Source of the DNA: a virus
Virus record (IMG/VR): IMGVR_UViG_3300046012_000361
Span: 1 to 21,468 of that record
Length of the DNA: 21,468 bases
Strand: one strand, 5' to 3'
Numbering within the stretch: position 1 is the first letter of the stretch; each line of letters starts with the position of its first letter. Shown one piece after another: positions 6,868-21,457 of the stretch. The notes under the pieces are model-generated. The model searched no databases, was not told where the DNA came from, and saw nothing but the letters and a program-made list of their open reading frames with translations. Made by a program: the position numbers and the translations under genes.

Positions 6868-6896
6868 TTGACAATCGCGGATATATATGATAGGTG
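6868..6896 (+). promoter_or_regulatory. Candidate rightward promoter
   Basis: A perfect TTGACA (6868-6873) is followed after 17 bases by TAGGTG (6891-6896), a weak -10 that overlaps the AGGTG ribosome binding site. AT-rich sequence (ATATATATGAT) fills the spacer. If used with this spacing, transcription would start at or just before the ATG at 6904. The -35 match is good and the -10 is uncertain. Confidence 0.4.
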
Positions 6897-6903
6897 TATA
6901 ACC

Positions 6904-7224
6904 ATGATGGAGAAAGAGTCTTCGGATATCTTGCGGCCTGGGGTCTACATCCTCCGCCTTCGCGGCCGGGTCGTTTGGGTTGGCGCAGCGCGCAAGCCAC
7001 TGGTTCGGGTATATGCCCATTCGGTCCAGCGCCGCGGGGACAAGCTTGCCGAATTCCTTCCAGCCCGTCCGGTGGAGTTCGATTCGATTGAAATCAGACC
7101 TTGTCATGTTGACCGCCTTGACTCGACGCAGGCGCAGGTCCGTGACGAGTTAGGGTGGGCCCCGCCTGTGCCTCGGTCGGCGGCCCACCCTATTGATTGG
7201 ACAAAGGTAGCCGCCAGTGCCTAG
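6904..7224 (+). CDS. GIY-YIG-like protein with altered active site (106 aa)
   Basis: The 106 residues match the layout of the GIY-YIG endonuclease domain: GVY at 13-15, then VWVG at 24-27 in place of YIG/YVG, LVRVYAH at 33-39 with the expected Arg35, and FDSIEI at 59-64. The last helix is DRLDSTQAQVRDELG (70-84). In active enzymes of this family the second motif has Tyr and the last helix carries a metal-binding Glu. Here they appear as Trp25 and Gln76, so the protein may bind DNA without cutting it. The ATG at 6904 is preceded by AGGTG, and a TTG start at 6868 would sit in the -35 box and is rejected. It is the first rightward gene and overlaps the next by eight bases. A role beside the terminase is possible. 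Confidence 0.6.
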   Translation: MMEKESSDILRPGVYILRLRGRVVWVGAARKPLVRVYAHSVQRRGDKLAEFLPARPVEFDSIEIRPCHVDRLDSTQAQVRDELGWAPPVPRSAAHPIDWTKVAASA

Positions 7225-13476: not shown

Positions 13477-14970
13477 ATGGATAACATCCTCGAATGGTTG
13501 GCCTCCTGCAAGCGCAAGCCGCTGCGCTTCGTCATGGGCGCTTTCCCTTGGGGTGTTGAAGGCACCACTCTTGCCAAAGCCACCGGCCCCGAGCCGTGGC
13601 AGATCGAAATCCTAACCAAGATCGAGGCCGGGCTACTAACCATCAACGAAGCCATGCGCATCGCCGTTGCATCGGGCCATGGCGTTGGCAAGTCTACGCT
13701 TGTCTCTTGGGTCATCCTTTGGGCCTTCACCACCTTTCCAGACACCCGCGGGGTTGTCACTGCCAATACCGAGAACCAGCTCAAAACCAAAACCTGGGCC
13801 GAACTTGGTAAGTGGTACAACCTCTTCGTTGGGAGGGACTACTTCCAGCTAACGGCCACCGCCTTGCTTTGCAAAGATCCGGCCCGCGATCGCACATGGC
13901 GCATTGACCAAGTTCCTTGGTCCGAACGCAACACTGAGGCCTTCCAGGGCCTCCACAACCAAGGCAAACGTGTTCTGCTTATAATGGACGAGGCCTCCTC
14001 CATCCTAGACAAAATCTGGGAAGTGGCCGAAGGAGCCATGACCGATGCTGACACTGAAATTATTTGGCTGGCTTTTGGTAACCCTACTCGTTCTATTGGC
14101 CGCTTTAGAGCTTGTTTTGACACTAGTGGACATGGGCGTTTTTGGCAAACGATGCAAGTCGATAGCCGAACGATTTCATTCACTAACAAACAACAGATTC
14201 AGAACTGGATAGAGGCCTACGGAGAAGATAGTGATTTCGTCCGGGTTAGAGTACTCGGAGTCTTCCCGCGTGCTGGTGAAATGGAATTCATTTCCGCGGC
14301 CGATGTTGACCTCGCAATGACGCGGGAAGCCGAAAGCCAATTGGCCGACCCACTCGCTCTTGGTTGTGACGTCGCGCGCTACGGCGCCAACGAAAGTGTC
14401 ATTGCCTTCCGAAAAGGCCGCGACGCTCGCGGGATGACCTGGGAGTTCTACCGTGGAATCAATACTGTCGAACTCGCTGCGAAAGTCTCCCATCACGCAG
14501 AGGCCGATGGTATTTTCATCGACGGAGGAGGTGTCGGTGGCGGCGTTGTCGATAATGTGCGTGCCCTTGGCCTCCACTGTTGGGATGTGCAATTCGGAGG
14601 GTCTGCTGACGTCGGTGGTCGTGAGACCGGGAACTCTGGTGAGGTTTATGCCAATAAGCGGGCTGAAATGTGGGGAGCAATGCGGGCCTGGATTCGTAGT
14701 GGTGGGGCCATCCCCGCCGATCCAGAGCTCCGAAAACAGCTAGTCGCGCCGCTTTATGGGCTTGACAATAAGGGCCGAATACAGTTAGAAAAGAAAGAAG
14801 ATATAATGAAAAGGCTTGGTGGTGACACCTCGCCGGATCGAGCAGACGCCCTGGCCCTAACCTTCGCCTATCCACTGCAAAGCCGCCAACAGCTTGACGT
14901 CTGGGGTCATCCTAAAGCCGAGGCCGAGCACGAATACGACCCTTATAGTGAAAGGATGATGATGGCATGA
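13477..14970 (+). CDS. terL: Terminase large subunit (497 aa)
   Basis: This is the ATP-driven motor and nuclease that packages DNA into the capsid. The ATPase half has a Walker A motif SGHGVGKST (66-74), a Walker B motif VLLIMDE (166-172) with catalytic Glu172, and a GNPTR coupling motif (201-205). The nuclease half has the expected acids: GCDVARYG (Asp298), FIDGGGVGGG (Asp349) and SPDRADAL (Asp457). Length and motif order match a complete large terminase. The ATG at 13477 is 14 bases after the tailspike stop and has no clear ribosome binding site, so translation may depend on the upstream gene. Its TGA overlaps the next ATG. The packaging type (headful, cos or terminal repeats) cannot be read from this sequence. 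Confidence 0.93.
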   Translation: MDNILEWLASCKRKPLRFVMGAFPWGVEGTTLAKATGPEPWQIEILTKIEAGLLTINEAMRIAVASGHGVGKSTLVSWVILWAFTTFPDTRGVVTANTENQLKTKTWAELGKWYNLFVGRDYFQLTATALLCKDPARDRTWRIDQVPWSERNTEAFQGLHNQGKRVLLIMDEASSILDKIWEVAEGAMTDADTEIIWLAFGNPTRSIGRFRACFDTSGHGRFWQTMQVDSRTISFTNKQQIQNWIEAYGEDSDFVRVRVLGVFPRAGEMEFISAADVDLAMTREAESQLADPLALGCDVARYGANESVIAFRKGRDARGMTWEFYRGINTVELAAKVSHHAEADGIFIDGGGVGGGVVDNVRALGLHCWDVQFGGSADVGGRETGNSGEVYANKRAEMWGAMRAWIRSGGAIPADPELRKQLVAPLYGLDNKGRIQLEKKEDIMKRLGGDTSPDRADALALTFAYPLQSRQQLDVWGHPKAEAEHEYDPYSERMMMA

Positions 14971-15194: not shown

Positions 15195-15388
15195 AAGCCC
15201 CGCGGTCCAATGTCCACCAAATCCGGCGGAATCCAATGACGGCGCCAGTCACACAGATCCCGCCGGAGTACCTCCAGATGGCCGCCGCCCATATGATGAA
15301 AATGGGCAAACAAGTCTTCGAAAACCAGCCGCCTTCGGCCGATCAGCTAACCGCGAGTTTAAATGGAAACGGTCCGCAAGGTCAGTAA
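15191..15388 (+). CDS. Hypothetical protein (65 aa)
   Basis: Unrecognised 65-residue protein. It has a basic N-terminus (KAPRSNVHQIRRN), a Met-rich amphipathic helix (PPEYLQMAAAHMMKMGKQVFEN, about 25-46) and a polar tail. The start at 15191 overlaps the preceding stop by ATGA. An internal Met at residue 16 (15236) is possible but has no clear site. Its last 26 bases overlap the portal start. Position suggests a head or packaging accessory protein. Confidence 0.65.
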   Translation: MKAPRSNVHQIRRNPMTAPVTQIPPEYLQMAAAHMMKMGKQVFENQPPSADQLTASLNGNGPQGQ

Positions 15389-17099
15389 GGAAGATCAGGC
15401 CTACCGGCGCTACGCCGAAAGCCAGATCCTTGCCCTACGCAATTGGCGCTACTCGTGGTGGACCCATGGGCGCGAACTCGCTGACTATTTCCTTCCTCGG
15501 AGATACAAATGGCTGATCACCCCCAACCAGCAAAACCGCGGCAGCCCGATCAATCAGCACATTATCGACAGTACCGGATACTTGTGCGCACAGAATCTGG
15601 CCAGTGGTCTTATGTCTGGGAAGGTTTCGCCAATTCAGCCATGGTTTGGACTGACGGCGGGTGGCTTAGACTCTACTGGCACTACTCCGACCTCCCTCTG
15701 GCTGTGGCAAGTGGAACGCCTACTCAGGGCGATCTTTTCGGAGAGCAACTTCTACCCGGCGATGCACCAGTACCTAATGGACTTGGTAATCTTTGGCACC
15801 GCTGTCTTAGTTATCTACGAAGATTTTGAGGACGTCATTATCTGCCGAAATCCATGTTTCGGGGAGTTCTATGTTGACGTAGACGGTCGGTATCAGCCTA
15901 CCATTTTAGGCCTAGAATATGTCCTCACCATCCGCCAAGTGGTCGATGAGTTCGGCCTCGAGAACTGCTCGCCTAGTGTTCAGAAGGTCTACACCCAACG
16001 AGACGGCGCCGGCCTTTCCCGCGAGATAATCATCGCGCAACTAATCGAGCCCAACAATGACGGACGTCAGTACGGAGTCCCCGATCGTTACGCTTTCCGC
16101 GAAGCTATTTGGGAATGGGGAGGCTCTGCTAGCCCGCAAAATAACTCCGGAGATAATCGCGGCTTCTTGCGTAAGACCGGTTATTTTGAGCAGCCCAATA
16201 TTACAAGTCGGTGGTATCTTGTATCAAACGACGCTTACGGGCGGTCACCCGCAATGGACGCCCTTGGGGATCAAAAGCAGCTCCAGCTAGAGCAGCGCCG
16301 TAAGCAACAAGCTATTGACAAGATGATCAACCCGCCGTTGGTGGCGGACGTCCAACTAAAAAACAAACCCGCGTCTTTGCTTCCGGGAGGAATCACTTAT
16401 GTTAATGGGTTTAGTGCCACTGGCAAGCCTGGTATTGCTAGCGTTTATAATAGCCAATTTCCAATTAACGAAGTGGTCGAGGACCTCGTCGAAGTCAGGG
16501 ACAGGCTGGGAAAGACTTTCTTTAACCAACTTTTTCAGCCGATGTCACAATTCGAAACCAGATCTAACGTTACCGCGGTAGAGGTTCAGCAGCGGCGGGC
16601 CGAGGCTTTGCTTATGCTCGGCCCGGTATTCGAGCGGTTAGATAACGAATGTCTCCGGCCAATCGTTGAGCGGGTTTACGCCATTGCTAAACGCGCCGGA
16701 ATCCTGCCGCCGCCTCCACCAGAGTTGAGCGGCAAAGATCTTTCCATCAAGTTCGTGTCGATGCTCAAGATGGCTCAGGACGCCACTGATGCCATTGCCA
16801 TTCAAGAGGTGTTGTCCTTGACCGGCGAGCTTGTCGGCGTCGATCCTCAAATCGGCGATAAAGTCGATTTCGATATGGCGCTGGATATATTCTCTAAACT
16901 AAAAGGCAACCCGCCGCAGATCATGCGCACCACTCAGGCTACCGCAGCAGTGCGCCAACAGCGGGCCCAGCAACAGCAACTTGCTGCCCAGGCTGATGCT
17001 GCCCAGAAACTCTCCGCCGGCGCTGCCAACTTAGCAAAGGCTGACGTAGGTGGCGGCCAGAATGCTTTGCAGGCAGCTTTAGGAGGCCAAGGTGGCTAA
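15363..17099 (+). CDS. Portal (head-to-tail connector) protein (578 aa)
   Basis: The portal forms the ring at the capsid vertex through which DNA passes and to which the tail attaches. The sequence fits the podovirus head-to-tail connector family. The N-terminal helix (AYRRYAESQILALRNWRYSW) leads to YFLPRR (42-47), and IDSTGYLCAQNLASGLMSG (68-86) and PWFGL are hallmarks of this family. The middle holds VIFGTAVLVIYED and the later LEQRRKQQAIDKMINPPLVA. The C-terminus (about 510-578) is a Gln/Ala-rich tail. Length is normal for the family. The ATG at 15363 overlaps the preceding gene by 26 bases and has no strong site. Its end overlaps the GTG of the next gene. Confidence 0.92.
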   Translation: METVRKVSKEDQAYRRYAESQILALRNWRYSWWTHGRELADYFLPRRYKWLITPNQQNRGSPINQHIIDSTGYLCAQNLASGLMSGKVSPIQPWFGLTAGGLDSTGTTPTSLWLWQVERLLRAIFSESNFYPAMHQYLMDLVIFGTAVLVIYEDFEDVIICRNPCFGEFYVDVDGRYQPTILGLEYVLTIRQVVDEFGLENCSPSVQKVYTQRDGAGLSREIIIAQLIEPNNDGRQYGVPDRYAFREAIWEWGGSASPQNNSGDNRGFLRKTGYFEQPNITSRWYLVSNDAYGRSPAMDALGDQKQLQLEQRRKQQAIDKMINPPLVADVQLKNKPASLLPGGITYVNGFSATGKPGIASVYNSQFPINEVVEDLVEVRDRLGKTFFNQLFQPMSQFETRSNVTAVEVQQRRAEALLMLGPVFERLDNECLRPIVERVYAIAKRAGILPPPPPELSGKDLSIKFVSMLKMAQDATDAIAIQEVLSLTGELVGVDPQIGDKVDFDMALDIFSKLKGNPPQIMRTTQATAAVRQQRAQQQQLAAQADAAQKLSAGAANLAKADVGGGQNALQAALGGQGG

Positions 17100-17469
17100 C
17101 GCAGCCCGCCGCGCCAGCGTCCGCGCCCAAGAAAAAGAGGCCCAGCAGACTGATGGCATTCGGCGAGTTGTTATAACCAGCCTTATGTCTAATCATGATG
17201 GTAGACAATACATCCAGGATGTGCTAGAGCAAAGCCATGTTTTTCAGACTTCGTTCTCTGACAATTATGGCACGATGTGTTTTATGGAAGGGGAACGCAA
17301 CTTCGGGCTGCGTGTTCTCAACGATGTTATGGAAAGCTGCCCGGAACAATTTATTCAGATGATGCGTGAAAAGAACGCCAGAACACAGTACGATGAAGTG
17401 CGTGACGCTAAGGAAGCTGTAGAAGAACCTGAGGAAGAGGCTGTGTTGGATAACATCTATGACGATTAA
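17092..17469 (+). CDS. Bbp19-like phage protein (125 aa)
   Basis: The core region SNHDGRQYIQDVLEQSHVF, then SFSDNYGTMCFMEGERNFGLRVLNDVMESCPEQF (about 33-86), matches the conserved Bbp19-type domain found between portal and scaffold genes in BPP-1-like phages, whose role is not established. The GTG start has AGGAGG five bases upstream. The N-terminus (residues 1-22) is Arg/Ala-rich and coded by GC-rich DNA. From about 17155 the coding sequence becomes visibly more AT-rich and stays so through the homing endonuclease gene. Its last 31 residues, from NARTQYDE to NIYDD, are mirrored at the end of the downstream endonuclease frame (see that entry), so this 3' end may be a replacement. Confidence 0.8.
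   Translation: MANAARRASVRAQEKEAQQTDGIRRVVITSLMSNHDGRQYIQDVLEQSHVFQTSFSDNYGTMCFMEGERNFGLRVLNDVMESCPEQFIQMMREKNARTQYDEVRDAKEAVEEPEEEAVLDNIYDD
17374..17469 (+). repeat. Duplicated C-terminal coding segment, copy 1 (Bbp19-like gene)
   Basis: This stretch encodes NARTQYDEVRDAKEAV to NIYDD at the end of the Bbp19-like protein. It is related at protein level to the segment 17822-17938. The DNA of the two copies differs at many codon positions, so it is an old or imported duplication rather than a recent copy. Confidence 0.7.
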
Positions 17470-17938
17470 ATTATCTGACTATGAGTTCGGTTGGTTTATC
17501 GGTATTCTTGAGGGAGAAGGCTGCCTAAACTACAACGGAAACAGTCAGATTATCGATGTGCATATGACAGATGAAGATTCTGTTATTTCCTATTCAAAGA
17601 TTCTATCCAAAATTTTAGAACAGGAAGTAAAAGTTTCAGCGTGGCAGCCACCGGGTAACCGAAAAAAGATGTATGGCTGTTTGATCTCAGGAGAGCGCGC
17701 ACGAATCGTAATGCGTTTGGTTCTGCCTTATATGTCGCAAAGGCGACAGGATAAAATTCGGTGGTCGTTGGGTGAAGACCGTCCGAAGTTTTCAGATCTA
17801 ATGCAACTGATAGGATCACAGAATGCCCGAAGAGAATACGACGCAGAACGCGACGCCAGAGACGCAGTTGACCCAGACGACGGAGAGCCAAGTTTCGTCA
17901 TCAACGACCTCCCCGGCGACGGAATCTACGACGAATGA
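17459..17938 (+). CDS. LAGLIDADG homing endonuclease fused to a Bbp19-like C-terminus (159 aa)
   Basis: The first 118 residues or so are a single-motif LAGLIDADG homing endonuclease. The motif is GWFIGILEGEG (11-21), with Glu20 as the acidic metal ligand. A strand (IIDVHMTDEDS), GNRKKMYGCLISG, a helix (RARIVMRLVLPYMS) and the basic RRQDKI follow. Single-motif members act as homodimers that cut a long DNA site. Residues 122-159 (NARREYDAERDARDAV to GIYDE) do not belong to that fold. They align with the last residues of the Bbp19-like protein, with 10 of 16 identical at the start and IYDE versus IYDD at the end. The gene is more AT-rich than its neighbours, overlaps the upstream gene by 11 bases and the scaffold gene by 116 bases, and appears free-standing. 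Confidence 0.85.
   Translation: MTIKLSDYEFGWFIGILEGEGCLNYNGNSQIIDVHMTDEDSVISYSKILSKILEQEVKVSAWQPPGNRKKMYGCLISGERARIVMRLVLPYMSQRRQDKIRWSLGEDRPKFSDLMQLIGSQNARREYDAERDARDAVDPDDGEPSFVINDLPGDGIYDE
17822..17938 (+). repeat. Duplicated C-terminal coding segment, copy 2 (endonuclease frame)
   Basis: This stretch encodes NARREYDAERDARDAV to GIYDE at the end of the endonuclease frame. It is also read in another frame as the start of the scaffold gene. This copy is GC-rich like the surrounding phage genes, so it is probably the original 3' end of the Bbp19-like gene. Confidence 0.65.
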
Positions 17939-18563
17939 CCCGTCACTCCTCAATGCCGAGACTCCCGAGACAACCGCAGAAAGCACCGCCCCTAAGGCGC
18001 CGGATGCTTATGAGTTCAAGCTCCCCGACGGAGTCACTCTCGACCCCAAGCTTGTCGACGAAGTCACCCCCATCCTCAAAGAGCTCGGGCTCTCCAACGA
18101 TAACGCCCAAAAGCTCGTCGACTGGTATAACAAGCACACCGGCGATACCGTCACCAGCCTACAGGAATCTAATCGCGCGACGCGGACCGAGTGGCAGTCA
18201 GAATCCAAAACGTGGATGAATGCCAATGGCGGCGAGGCAGCAGTCAAGACCGACGTCGGCCGGGCCCTCAATTCTGTCTTCGCCAACGCCGATGGCACGC
18301 CTGATACCAAAGCCATTGGCGAGTTCAAGAAATATATGGACTGGACCTTCGCCGGTGACAATCCATATTTCATCCGGGCGTTTGCAACCATGGCCAAGTC
18401 CTTTAACGAAGGCAAGGCTGTGCAGGGCAGCGGTCCGTCTCAATTCGGCCAGCAGAAACCGGGCACGGGACAACGTCCCTCTTTAGCCCAGGCTGTGTAT
18501 GGTCCGGATGGCCCCCGCAGGGAGCCGATACGTAACCCAAATGGCTCACCGCAAGGCGGTTGA
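17823..18563 (+). CDS. Capsid scaffold/assembly protein (246 aa)
   Basis: The protein probably guides procapsid assembly and is later removed. Residues 1-60 are Thr/Ser/Glu/Pro-rich and disordered. The core starts with DAYEFKLPDGVTLDPKLVDEVTP (61-83), a phrase typical of phage scaffold proteins, and continues with helical segments (LKELGLSNDNAQKLVDWYNKH; AVKTDVGRALNS). The C-terminal part (about 195-246) is Gly/Pro/Gln-rich and ends NPNGSPQGG. AGGA lies eight bases before the ATG at 17823. The first 116 bases overlap the endonuclease gene in another frame. Position directly before the major capsid gene supports the call. A fused protease is not visible. Confidence 0.8.
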   Translation: MPEENTTQNATPETQLTQTTESQVSSSTTSPATESTTNDPSLLNAETPETTAESTAPKAPDAYEFKLPDGVTLDPKLVDEVTPILKELGLSNDNAQKLVDWYNKHTGDTVTSLQESNRATRTEWQSESKTWMNANGGEAAVKTDVGRALNSVFANADGTPDTKAIGEFKKYMDWTFAGDNPYFIRAFATMAKSFNEGKAVQGSGPSQFGQQKPGTGQRPSLAQAVYGPDGPRREPIRNPNGSPQGG

Positions 18564-18607: not shown

Positions 18608-19657
18608 ATGGCAGCGGCCACAATTGGCTCAACCGCACTAACCTACGCGGACTGGGCCCGAAGGATTGACGACGATTACCACATCGCGTCGATCATTGAA
18701 ATTCTTTCGCAGACGAATGAAATCCTCGACGACATGCTTGTTGTCGAAGGCAATCTCCCCACCGGTCATAAGACTACGGTCCGGACCGGTATCCCCCAGG
18801 CAACTTGGCGCTTGCTCAACACCGGCGTGCCGAATGCCAAGTCAACCACCGGCCAGATCGTCGATACCTGCGGCAATCTGGAAACCTATTCGGTGGTGGA
18901 TAAGGACATTGCTGATCTCAACGGCAACACCGCCGAGTTCCGTCTGTCAGAGTCCCGAGCCTTCTTGCAGGGCATGTCCCAGCAGGTGGCGGGTACTTTG
19001 ATATACGGCAACCAAGGCGTCAACCCTGAGCGCTTCACCGGCCTTGCCCCACGGTACTCCACCAAGAACACGGCGGTAAGTCAGACTGCCAACAACGTTC
19101 TCGATGGCGGCGGCACCAGCAACACCAACACCTCGATTTGGATTGTTGTTTGGGGTGGTGACACTTGGCACGGCATGTTCCCGAAAGGAAAGATGACGGG
19201 GTTACAGCATATTGACATGGGCGAGTGGCCGGTCAGTGACCCCTCAGGCAACACCTATCAGGCCTACCGTGAGCACTACAAGTGGGAAATCGGCCTCGTT
19301 GGTCGTGATTGGCGCTTCGTTGTTCGCATTGCCAATATTGACGTGACCCAGCTAACCGGCGTTAGTGCAGCTAACCTGCTCAATCTTCTGGTTCGCGGCC
19401 TCTACCGTCTGCCGACGGCGCCCTCGATGACCACCGCAATACAGACCTCTGATACGCCCGAGGTTCGCGGCGACATGGGGCGCACGGTGATCTACTGCAA
19501 TCGCGTGATCCGCACCTACCTAGACCTCCAGGCGATGAACAAGACCAACGTCTTGCTCCAGCTTTCGGAGTTCGACGGCAAGGTCGTGACCACGTTCCGC
19601 GGCATTCCTGTCCGGACGGTGGATCAGATCAACAACAACGAAGCACAGATCGTGTAA
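18608..19657 (+). CDS. Major capsid protein, GP7/HK97-type (349 aa)
   Basis: This is the main shell protein. The sequence matches the podovirus major capsid family named after phage GP7. Recognisable parts are LTYADWARRID at the start, then SQTNEILDDML and GNLPTGHKTTVRTGIP. WRLLNTGV, VDKDIADLNGN and FRLSESRAFLQGM follow, and then GLAPRYS, TSIWIVVWG and MFPKGKMTGLQHIDMG. It also has YKWEIGLVGRDWRFVVRIANID and ends NNNEAQIV. Length is normal for the family and no N-terminal prodomain is seen. The start has AAGGAG eight bases upstream, in a 44-bp gap after the scaffold gene. The strong site and spacing suggest high translation. Confidence 0.93.
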   Translation: MAAATIGSTALTYADWARRIDDDYHIASIIEILSQTNEILDDMLVVEGNLPTGHKTTVRTGIPQATWRLLNTGVPNAKSTTGQIVDTCGNLETYSVVDKDIADLNGNTAEFRLSESRAFLQGMSQQVAGTLIYGNQGVNPERFTGLAPRYSTKNTAVSQTANNVLDGGGTSNTNTSIWIVVWGGDTWHGMFPKGKMTGLQHIDMGEWPVSDPSGNTYQAYREHYKWEIGLVGRDWRFVVRIANIDVTQLTGVSAANLLNLLVRGLYRLPTAPSMTTAIQTSDTPEVRGDMGRTVIYCNRVIRTYLDLQAMNKTNVLLQLSEFDGKVVTTFRGIPVRTVDQINNNEAQIV

Positions 19658-20887: not shown

Positions 20888-21457
20888 ATGGCACGTTGGC
20901 GATTAGTTGGTGAGCAGGCGGCCTATCTCAAAACTGACCCGCCGTCTATCTACACCATTCGGGAAACCGATGTGGTGACTGGTAAGACGGCGCAGAAGGT
21001 CTTTGAGGTGCCAACTGAGGTTCCTTCTGGAAGCATTTTGGCTCTGGCCGAAGGCTTCCATCAGGACACCGACATCATCTTTTCCGGTGACCCCACGCCG
21101 GATATGTATCCCCTCGACGAGGAAGCAAAAATCATCACGGCCGCTATGGAACAACGTTGGGGTCAACAGTTCCTTGGCCTTGAGGGCAACTACTCCGACA
21201 CCATTGGACGGCAGATAGCGGATCTTTTCACCGATATTAGATCAAGCATGCCCATCCAACCCTCGCCGGTTGCTTCTCCGTCGAGTGAAGTCGTGGAACT
21301 CCGTTCGCAGGTTGCTGAACTGGCCGGCGTTGTTAAGGCCCTTTTGGCAGAAAGGAAAGACGATGAAACATCCGGGATTCAAGTCGGTGCAATCATCGAT
21401 AGCCAAGAAAGAAGGGGTGTCGAGCAAGCGGGCGGGAGCCATTCTCGCCGCGTCTAG
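20888..21457 (+). CDS. Hypothetical protein with C-terminal coiled coil (189 aa)
   Basis: Unrecognised 189-residue protein. The N-terminal part (MARWRLVGEQAAYLKT, YTIRETDVVTGKTAQKVFEVP) looks beta-rich. Then come TPDMYPLDEEAKIITAAMEQRWG (about 80-103) and a short coiled coil (VVELRSQVAELAGVVKALLAER, about 135-158), followed by a charged tail ending SRRV. The ATG at 20888 has GGAGG six bases upstream. The longer start at 20858 overlaps the previous gene more and lacks a site. Its last 95 bases overlap the next gene. Position suggests a virion or head-tail joining protein. Confidence 0.7.
   Translation: MARWRLVGEQAAYLKTDPPSIYTIRETDVVTGKTAQKVFEVPTEVPSGSILALAEGFHQDTDIIFSGDPTPDMYPLDEEAKIITAAMEQRWGQQFLGLEGNYSDTIGRQIADLFTDIRSSMPIQPSPVASPSSEVVELRSQVAELAGVVKALLAERKDDETSGIQVGAIIDSQERRGVEQAGGSHSRRV

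Follow-up and report, generated by a model that had tools for sequence, protein, structure and literature searches.

How a free-standing homing endonuclease can enter coding sequence without harm is a standing question, and intergenic room in phage genomes is scarce. The question is raised by a 21.5 kb viral contig (21,468 nucleotides, referred to below as the window), in which the gene order is portal, Bbp19-like gene, nuclease ORF, scaffold/protease and major capsid protein (Table 1). Both a match to the PF25181 profile and its place between portal and scaffold identify the second of these genes as Bbp19-like. The nuclease begins at an ATG that overlaps the Bbp19 stop by 11 nt. Its ORF also contains the scaffold ATG, so that nuclease and scaffold overlap by 116 nt, and a Shine-Dalgarno-like AGGA for the scaffold gene is provided by the nuclease 3' end. 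Among the closest relatives, portal identity to the window portal is 73-78%.

Table 1. Features of the Bbp19/scaffold locus, in window positions.
Feature	Position	Strand	Evidence or remark
Portal / head-to-tail connector gene, host flank	15363..17099	+	PF12236, E 4e-120
Bbp19-like gene, whole, with replacement 3' end	17092..17469	+	PF25181, E 2e-10
Probable foreign tract (Bbp19 residues 25-125 and nuclease); left edge approximate	17164..17818	+	GC3, GC dip
Upstream (replacement) copy of Bbp19 3' end	17374..17469	+	scaffold ATG lost (aACG)
Nuclease ORF, 159 aa	17459-17938	+	whole reading frame including tail
Putative single-motif LAGLIDADG homing endonuclease domain	17459..17818	+	motif GWFIGILEGEG; family profile, predicted fold
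Right-hand junction: nuclease-derived end, native restart at cagAATGCCCGAAG	17819..17822	+	relatives' alignment; AATGCCCGA in empty relatives
Displaced native Bbp19 3' end (C-terminal tail of nuclease ORF)	17822..17938	+	position and overlap as in empty relatives
Scaffold/protease gene, ATG within displaced tail	17823..18563	+	phrog_458, E 1e-26
Major capsid protein, host flank	18608..19657	+	PF20911, E 2e-130

Searched alone, the window nuclease ORF returned no significant Pfam match. Within its family, 22 of 27 members match LAGLIDADG_3, and a profile of the 27 relatives, across which W12, G15, L17, E18, G19, E20 and G21 (W..G.LEGEG) are invariant, matches I-AniI (E 7e-9). The predicted model has a pLDDT of 88, with low confidence over the last 20 residues, and its best fold matches (DreI, I-MsoI and I-DmoI) are all LAGLIDADG enzymes but weak, the best at E 6e-3. 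The motif helix and the predicted alpha-beta-beta-alpha-beta-beta-alpha fold identify the ORF as a putative LAGLIDADG homing endonuclease; single-motif enzymes of this type are expected to work as homodimers. To the same family belong LAGLIDADG endonucleases of Curtobacterium, Arthrobacter, Microbacterium and Synechococcus phages (about 29-37% identical over residues 9-111), which occupy other sites and, unlike the window ORF, carry no tail matching a neighbouring host gene. The top PHROG of the ORF, phrog_5046, is labelled 'HNH endonuclease', and relatives in phage records bear both names; the HNH label on a LAGLIDADG nuclease is probably a labelling error in public data. Elsewhere in the window, a 118-aa ORF (6868-7224) contains a GIY-YIG-like stretch (GVYILRLRGRVVWVGAARKPLVRVYAH) and returned neither a Pfam match (E<0.01) nor a PHROG match (E<0.001).

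The nuclease ORF ends in a second version of the C-terminus of its upstream neighbour. Residues 122-159 of the ORF (NARREYDAERDARDAV...GIYDE; 17822-17935 plus stop) align with residues 95-125 of the Bbp19-like protein (NARTQYDEVRDAKEAV...NIYDD; 17374-17466 plus stop) at a local BLOSUM62 score of 63, a value reached by none of 20,000 shuffles (mean 23, maximum 56), and the runner-up among 435 reading frames of the window scores 28. The homology of the last 38 to the last 31 residues, which an earlier note had read from the sequence, is thereby confirmed, coordinates included. The two copies share 57 of 93 nucleotides; of the 31 aligned codons, 6 match exactly, 9 differ synonymously and 16 nonsynonymously. 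Upstream of the tail the homology might seem to continue (IQMMREK against MQLIGSQ), but this extension was rejected, as nuclease relatives align through LMQLIGS.

Such a tail could also be a C-terminal domain with a function in this nuclease family, resembling Bbp19 by coincidence or through convergence of acidic sequences, and several family members do possess C-terminal extensions (zinc-finger-like or helix-turn-helix). The closest nuclease relatives (L111-L114), however, end at window residue about 118-121, at the junction itself, which marks the tail as no normal part of the family. Furthermore, among 91 nuclease ORFs, a tail match to a neighbouring gene other than a nuclease was found for the window ORF only; the two matches ranking next (L131 and L144) were between nucleases, through zinc fingers, and were rejected. 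The tail DNA is also pinned by the overlapping scaffold start, and the low model confidence noted above lies over the end of the ORF. A functional tail is consequently highly improbable. Given that the closest nuclease relatives end at the junction, nuclease-derived sequence appears to stop at the point where the native sequence takes over again. With the stop of the nuclease itself lost, reading continues to the old Bbp19 stop.

Which of the two Bbp19 ends is native was approached through 80 capsid-matched viral loci, 6 Bbp19-matched loci and 10 genome loci. In about 70 related loci carrying both the Bbp19 and scaffold genes, the nuclease is absent and a single Bbp19 gene is found, with no insertion; in most of these empty relatives, Bbp19 extends by about 25-70 residues beyond its conserved core and overlaps scaffold by roughly 80-218 nt. 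In 51 distinct empty loci, a Bbp19 Asn codon contains the scaffold ATG (aATG), and the most conserved 16-nt stretch has its first base at the insertion point, 8 nt before this ATG. An apparent gap of +413 in one locus (L056) was rejected as an insertion and read as a failure of start-codon detection. In the window, the downstream copy retains the Asn codon with its embedded scaffold ATG, as in the empty relatives, with which it also has AATGCCCGA in common; AATGCCCGAAG is present at the downstream junction and absent from the upstream copy. In the upstream copy this fixed Asn codon is AAC rather than AAT, which leaves no scaffold start, and when read in the scaffold frame the copy meets a stop after 15 codons.

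Protein similarity points in the same direction at lower strength. By raw score, 58 of 69 relatives' tails fit the downstream copy better and 10 the upstream copy; corrected for composition and length, only 38 of 58 tails favour the downstream copy, with z above 3 for four of them and for none in favour of the upstream copy. Tails of the Bbp19 type are short and fast-evolving. Because the corrected similarity favours the downstream copy only modestly, position and embedded ATG are the main evidence, and the comparison supports the downstream copy as the native Bbp19 end. The expectation in the earlier note that relatives' C-termini should match this copy was borne out by raw score and more weakly after correction; its expectation that their Bbp19 genes run straight into the scaffold start stood insofar as a single gene reaches scaffold, but in most relatives that gene continues well into it. 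Given that the downstream copy keeps both the native position and the scaffold overlap, the view that the displaced original end became fused to the endonuclease is upheld.

Codon composition bears on how much DNA came in. GC3 is 0.60 in portal and 0.67 in Bbp19 residues 1-24, 0.47 in Bbp19 residues 25-94, 0.45 in the upstream tail and 0.43 in the nuclease, and again 0.62 in the displaced tail and 0.67 in scaffold. The difference between Bbp19 core and portal (-0.13) is below that of every relative (mean 0.00, sd 0.07, minimum -0.12). This low-GC3 tract is a compositional sign that the greater part of Bbp19, beginning near residue 25 (~17164), may have arrived with the nuclease, as in one-sided coconversion. 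Another reading starts from the two window tails being each other's best match (at most 52 for either tail with any relative): the Bbp19 3' end might have been duplicated in place in this lineage and the nuclease have landed between the copies, with nothing imported and the upstream copy drifting free of the scaffold overlap, where the end of dual coding would permit rapid synonymous change. The low-GC3 tract, however, includes Bbp19 residues 25-94, which were never dual-coding, and none of the empty relatives compared has tandem Bbp19 ends. With the gene-start loci described below also speaking against it, we regard duplication in place as unlikely. The comparison yielded no near-identical empty phage, the closest portal being 78% identical, and the left edge given for the probable foreign tract is approximate. 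An exact-peptide scan for the nuclease gave no match, and so no donor or twin; that for scaffold gave one distant locus only, neither donor nor twin; and a search of 385 genomes from the class of the MAG of locus L090 found no such nuclease.

Mobile LAGLIDADG genes often reside in introns or inteins, and that of LittleE sits in a group I intron region of a capsid gene. If the same held here, splicing would join the upstream Bbp19 to the downstream copy. This is exceedingly improbable for the window: Rfam gave no intron match at E up to 0.5, the upstream Bbp19 gene is whole, stop included, and overlaps the nuclease start, which is in another frame. Neither an intron core nor intein splicing blocks (the latter judged from ORF layout) were found around the nuclease, which at 120 residues is too small to hold such blocks. 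These results, with the roughly 70 empty relatives, bear out the proposal of the earlier note that a coding gene was entered without intron or intein. An assembly chimera of two related phages is a further possibility for an arrangement known from a single metagenome contig, of which no second exact copy was found. Against this, the reading frames and overlaps are all intact, down to the 11 nt shared by nuclease start and Bbp19 stop, and parallel arrangements occur on other contigs (L112, L113 and L248), which renders a chimera very improbable.

We consider it very likely that the Bbp19/scaffold junction was invaded by a LAGLIDADG nuclease gene that brought a replacement Bbp19 3' end with it. 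Empty relatives, embedded ATG and GC3 all agree with the earlier note in this respect, namely that the element entered the 3' part of the Bbp19-like gene and that the host gene stayed whole through a substitute end. The comparison with relatives shows that a phage LAGLIDADG gene entered the overlap of Bbp19 and scaffold immediately ahead of the scaffold ATG. The incoming DNA would have carried its own Bbp19 3' end, extending, to judge by the low-GC tract, over roughly residues 25-125. Both neighbours are intact: scaffold because the insertion point lies upstream of its ATG, and Bbp19 probably because the incoming DNA supplied its 3' end. The displaced Bbp19 end has been retained because it encodes, in another frame, the first 38 codons of scaffold, and the nuclease reads through this tail to the old Bbp19 stop because its own stop was lost. 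As for spread, the nuclease may cut the conserved ribosome-binding/ATG junction of empty phages, and repair of the break from the donor could copy the nuclease together with flanking Bbp19 sequence leftward, by coconversion; the altered upstream copy and the interrupted junction might then protect the new allele from being cut again. Translation of the nuclease is probably coupled to the Bbp19 stop, a mode of expression that has been proposed for T4 mobE, segF and others (PMC2988022).

For comparable events elsewhere, the DNA left and right of the nuclease core was compared in translation at 120 distinct nuclease loci. Four loci stood out, namely L248, the window, L113 and L112; L145, L134, L161 and lower matches were rejected for low z or as compositional. 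In L113 (547-1633) and L112 (2489-3057), the nuclease and the next gene, a homolog of window 20888-21457, both begin MARWKLTEP, and the candidate target sequence is aggagtaggactctaATGGCACGATGG. Here, the nuclease ORF opens with the native start, to which it is fused; downstream, the next gene has a recoded start, all differences between the two being synonymous. Of the 27 nt concerned, empty phages that have the same upstream flank and also begin MARWKLTEP share 22-25 with the fused copy and 19 with the downstream copy. Relative to one empty phage (L274), the L112/L113 gene is 70% identical over these 27 nt and 92% over the next 60, a pattern of diverged new start and conserved continuation that is expected of an imported end and that argues against duplication in place. 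The duplicated stretch could be only four or five codons long, given that part of KLTEP fits a natural nuclease N-terminus. At the same site in L195 (3001-3616), there is a different nuclease, and the native start is reduced to ATGGCA.

In L248 (2838-4030), a truncated native start of 16 codons (MSNIVFNIALGRVAEL*) is followed by a nuclease of a more distant LAGLIDADG subgroup and then by the full gene (MANIVFNIGLGRIAELYNR...) with a diverged start; of 54 comparisons with empty relatives, 39 are closer to the truncated copy and 8 to the copy in the full gene. Judged by their sequences, L112/L113 and L248 appear as mirror images of the window, with the start rather than the end of a gene replaced. 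These cases go beyond the earlier note, as do the retention of the displaced end through its coding of scaffold and the foreign tract that probably starts inside Bbp19. Close relatives of the window nuclease were also observed in other settings. In L192 (1799-4892), one divides a family-A DNA polymerase gene into two ORFs, a UDG/exonuclease part and a polymerase part, and is overlapped at both ends; in L114 (963-2887), another lies immediately downstream of a gene for the terminase large subunit. This gene, homologous to window 13477-14970, has a C-terminus unlike that of its relatives, and no displaced copy was seen downstream.

Replacement gene ends are also supplied by integrases that insert into a tRNA or protein gene and rebuild its 3' end; these act on att sites by a tyrosine-recombinase mechanism and leave near-identical repeats. 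In the window, by contrast, a nuclease is involved and the two copies have diverged. Recoded rescue ends, as used in engineered gene drives, are a further parallel. The closest known kind is that of fungal mitochondrial mobile ORFs, described for atp6 of Allomyces macrogynus and for atp6, atp9, cox2 and nad3 of Glomus sp. (PMC3630166), in which a LAGLIDADG or GIY-YIG ORF enters a coding gene intron-free, the gene receives a foreign C-terminal part, and its original C-terminus, now displaced to a position downstream, is closer to close relatives or sister species. The window has the same intron- and intein-free insertion in a coding gene and the same two host C-termini, one of them displaced and, by position, embedded ATG and raw score (58 to 10), closer to nuclease-free relatives. 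It differs from the fungal cases in its phage setting and in keeping a displaced end, fused to the nuclease ORF, in which the start of an overlapping gene is encoded; the 5'-end versions (L112/L113 and L248) further set the phage loci apart, and these three features are what is new. Our literature search, in which coverage of subscription papers was incomplete, found the fungal precedent and no phage report. Among phages, the seg and mob endonucleases of T4 are likewise free-standing between conserved phage genes and show coconversion of flanking markers, and their starts overlap the stop of the gene upstream, for segF by 11 bp, as at the window nuclease; unlike the window enzyme, they are GIY-YIG or HNH proteins described as intergenic, and 'duplicat' does not occur in the text of the T4 review (PMC2988022).

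The window locus represents a route into coding sequence that requires neither intron nor intein, in which a substitute end is provided for one gene and the native end is left for the gene that overlaps it. With two mirror cases at gene starts, the strategy may be a general one. We tentatively put forward, as quite possible, that LAGLIDADG nucleases of this clade and some of their relatives colonise the conserved ribosome-binding/start junctions of tightly packed or overlapping genes by means of recoded 3' or 5' replacement ends, and that recoding would at once keep both neighbours functional, destroy the target and prevent loss by recombination. The locus allows an easy test of cleavage, and by separating two overlapping genes the insertion provides a natural experiment on gene overlap.
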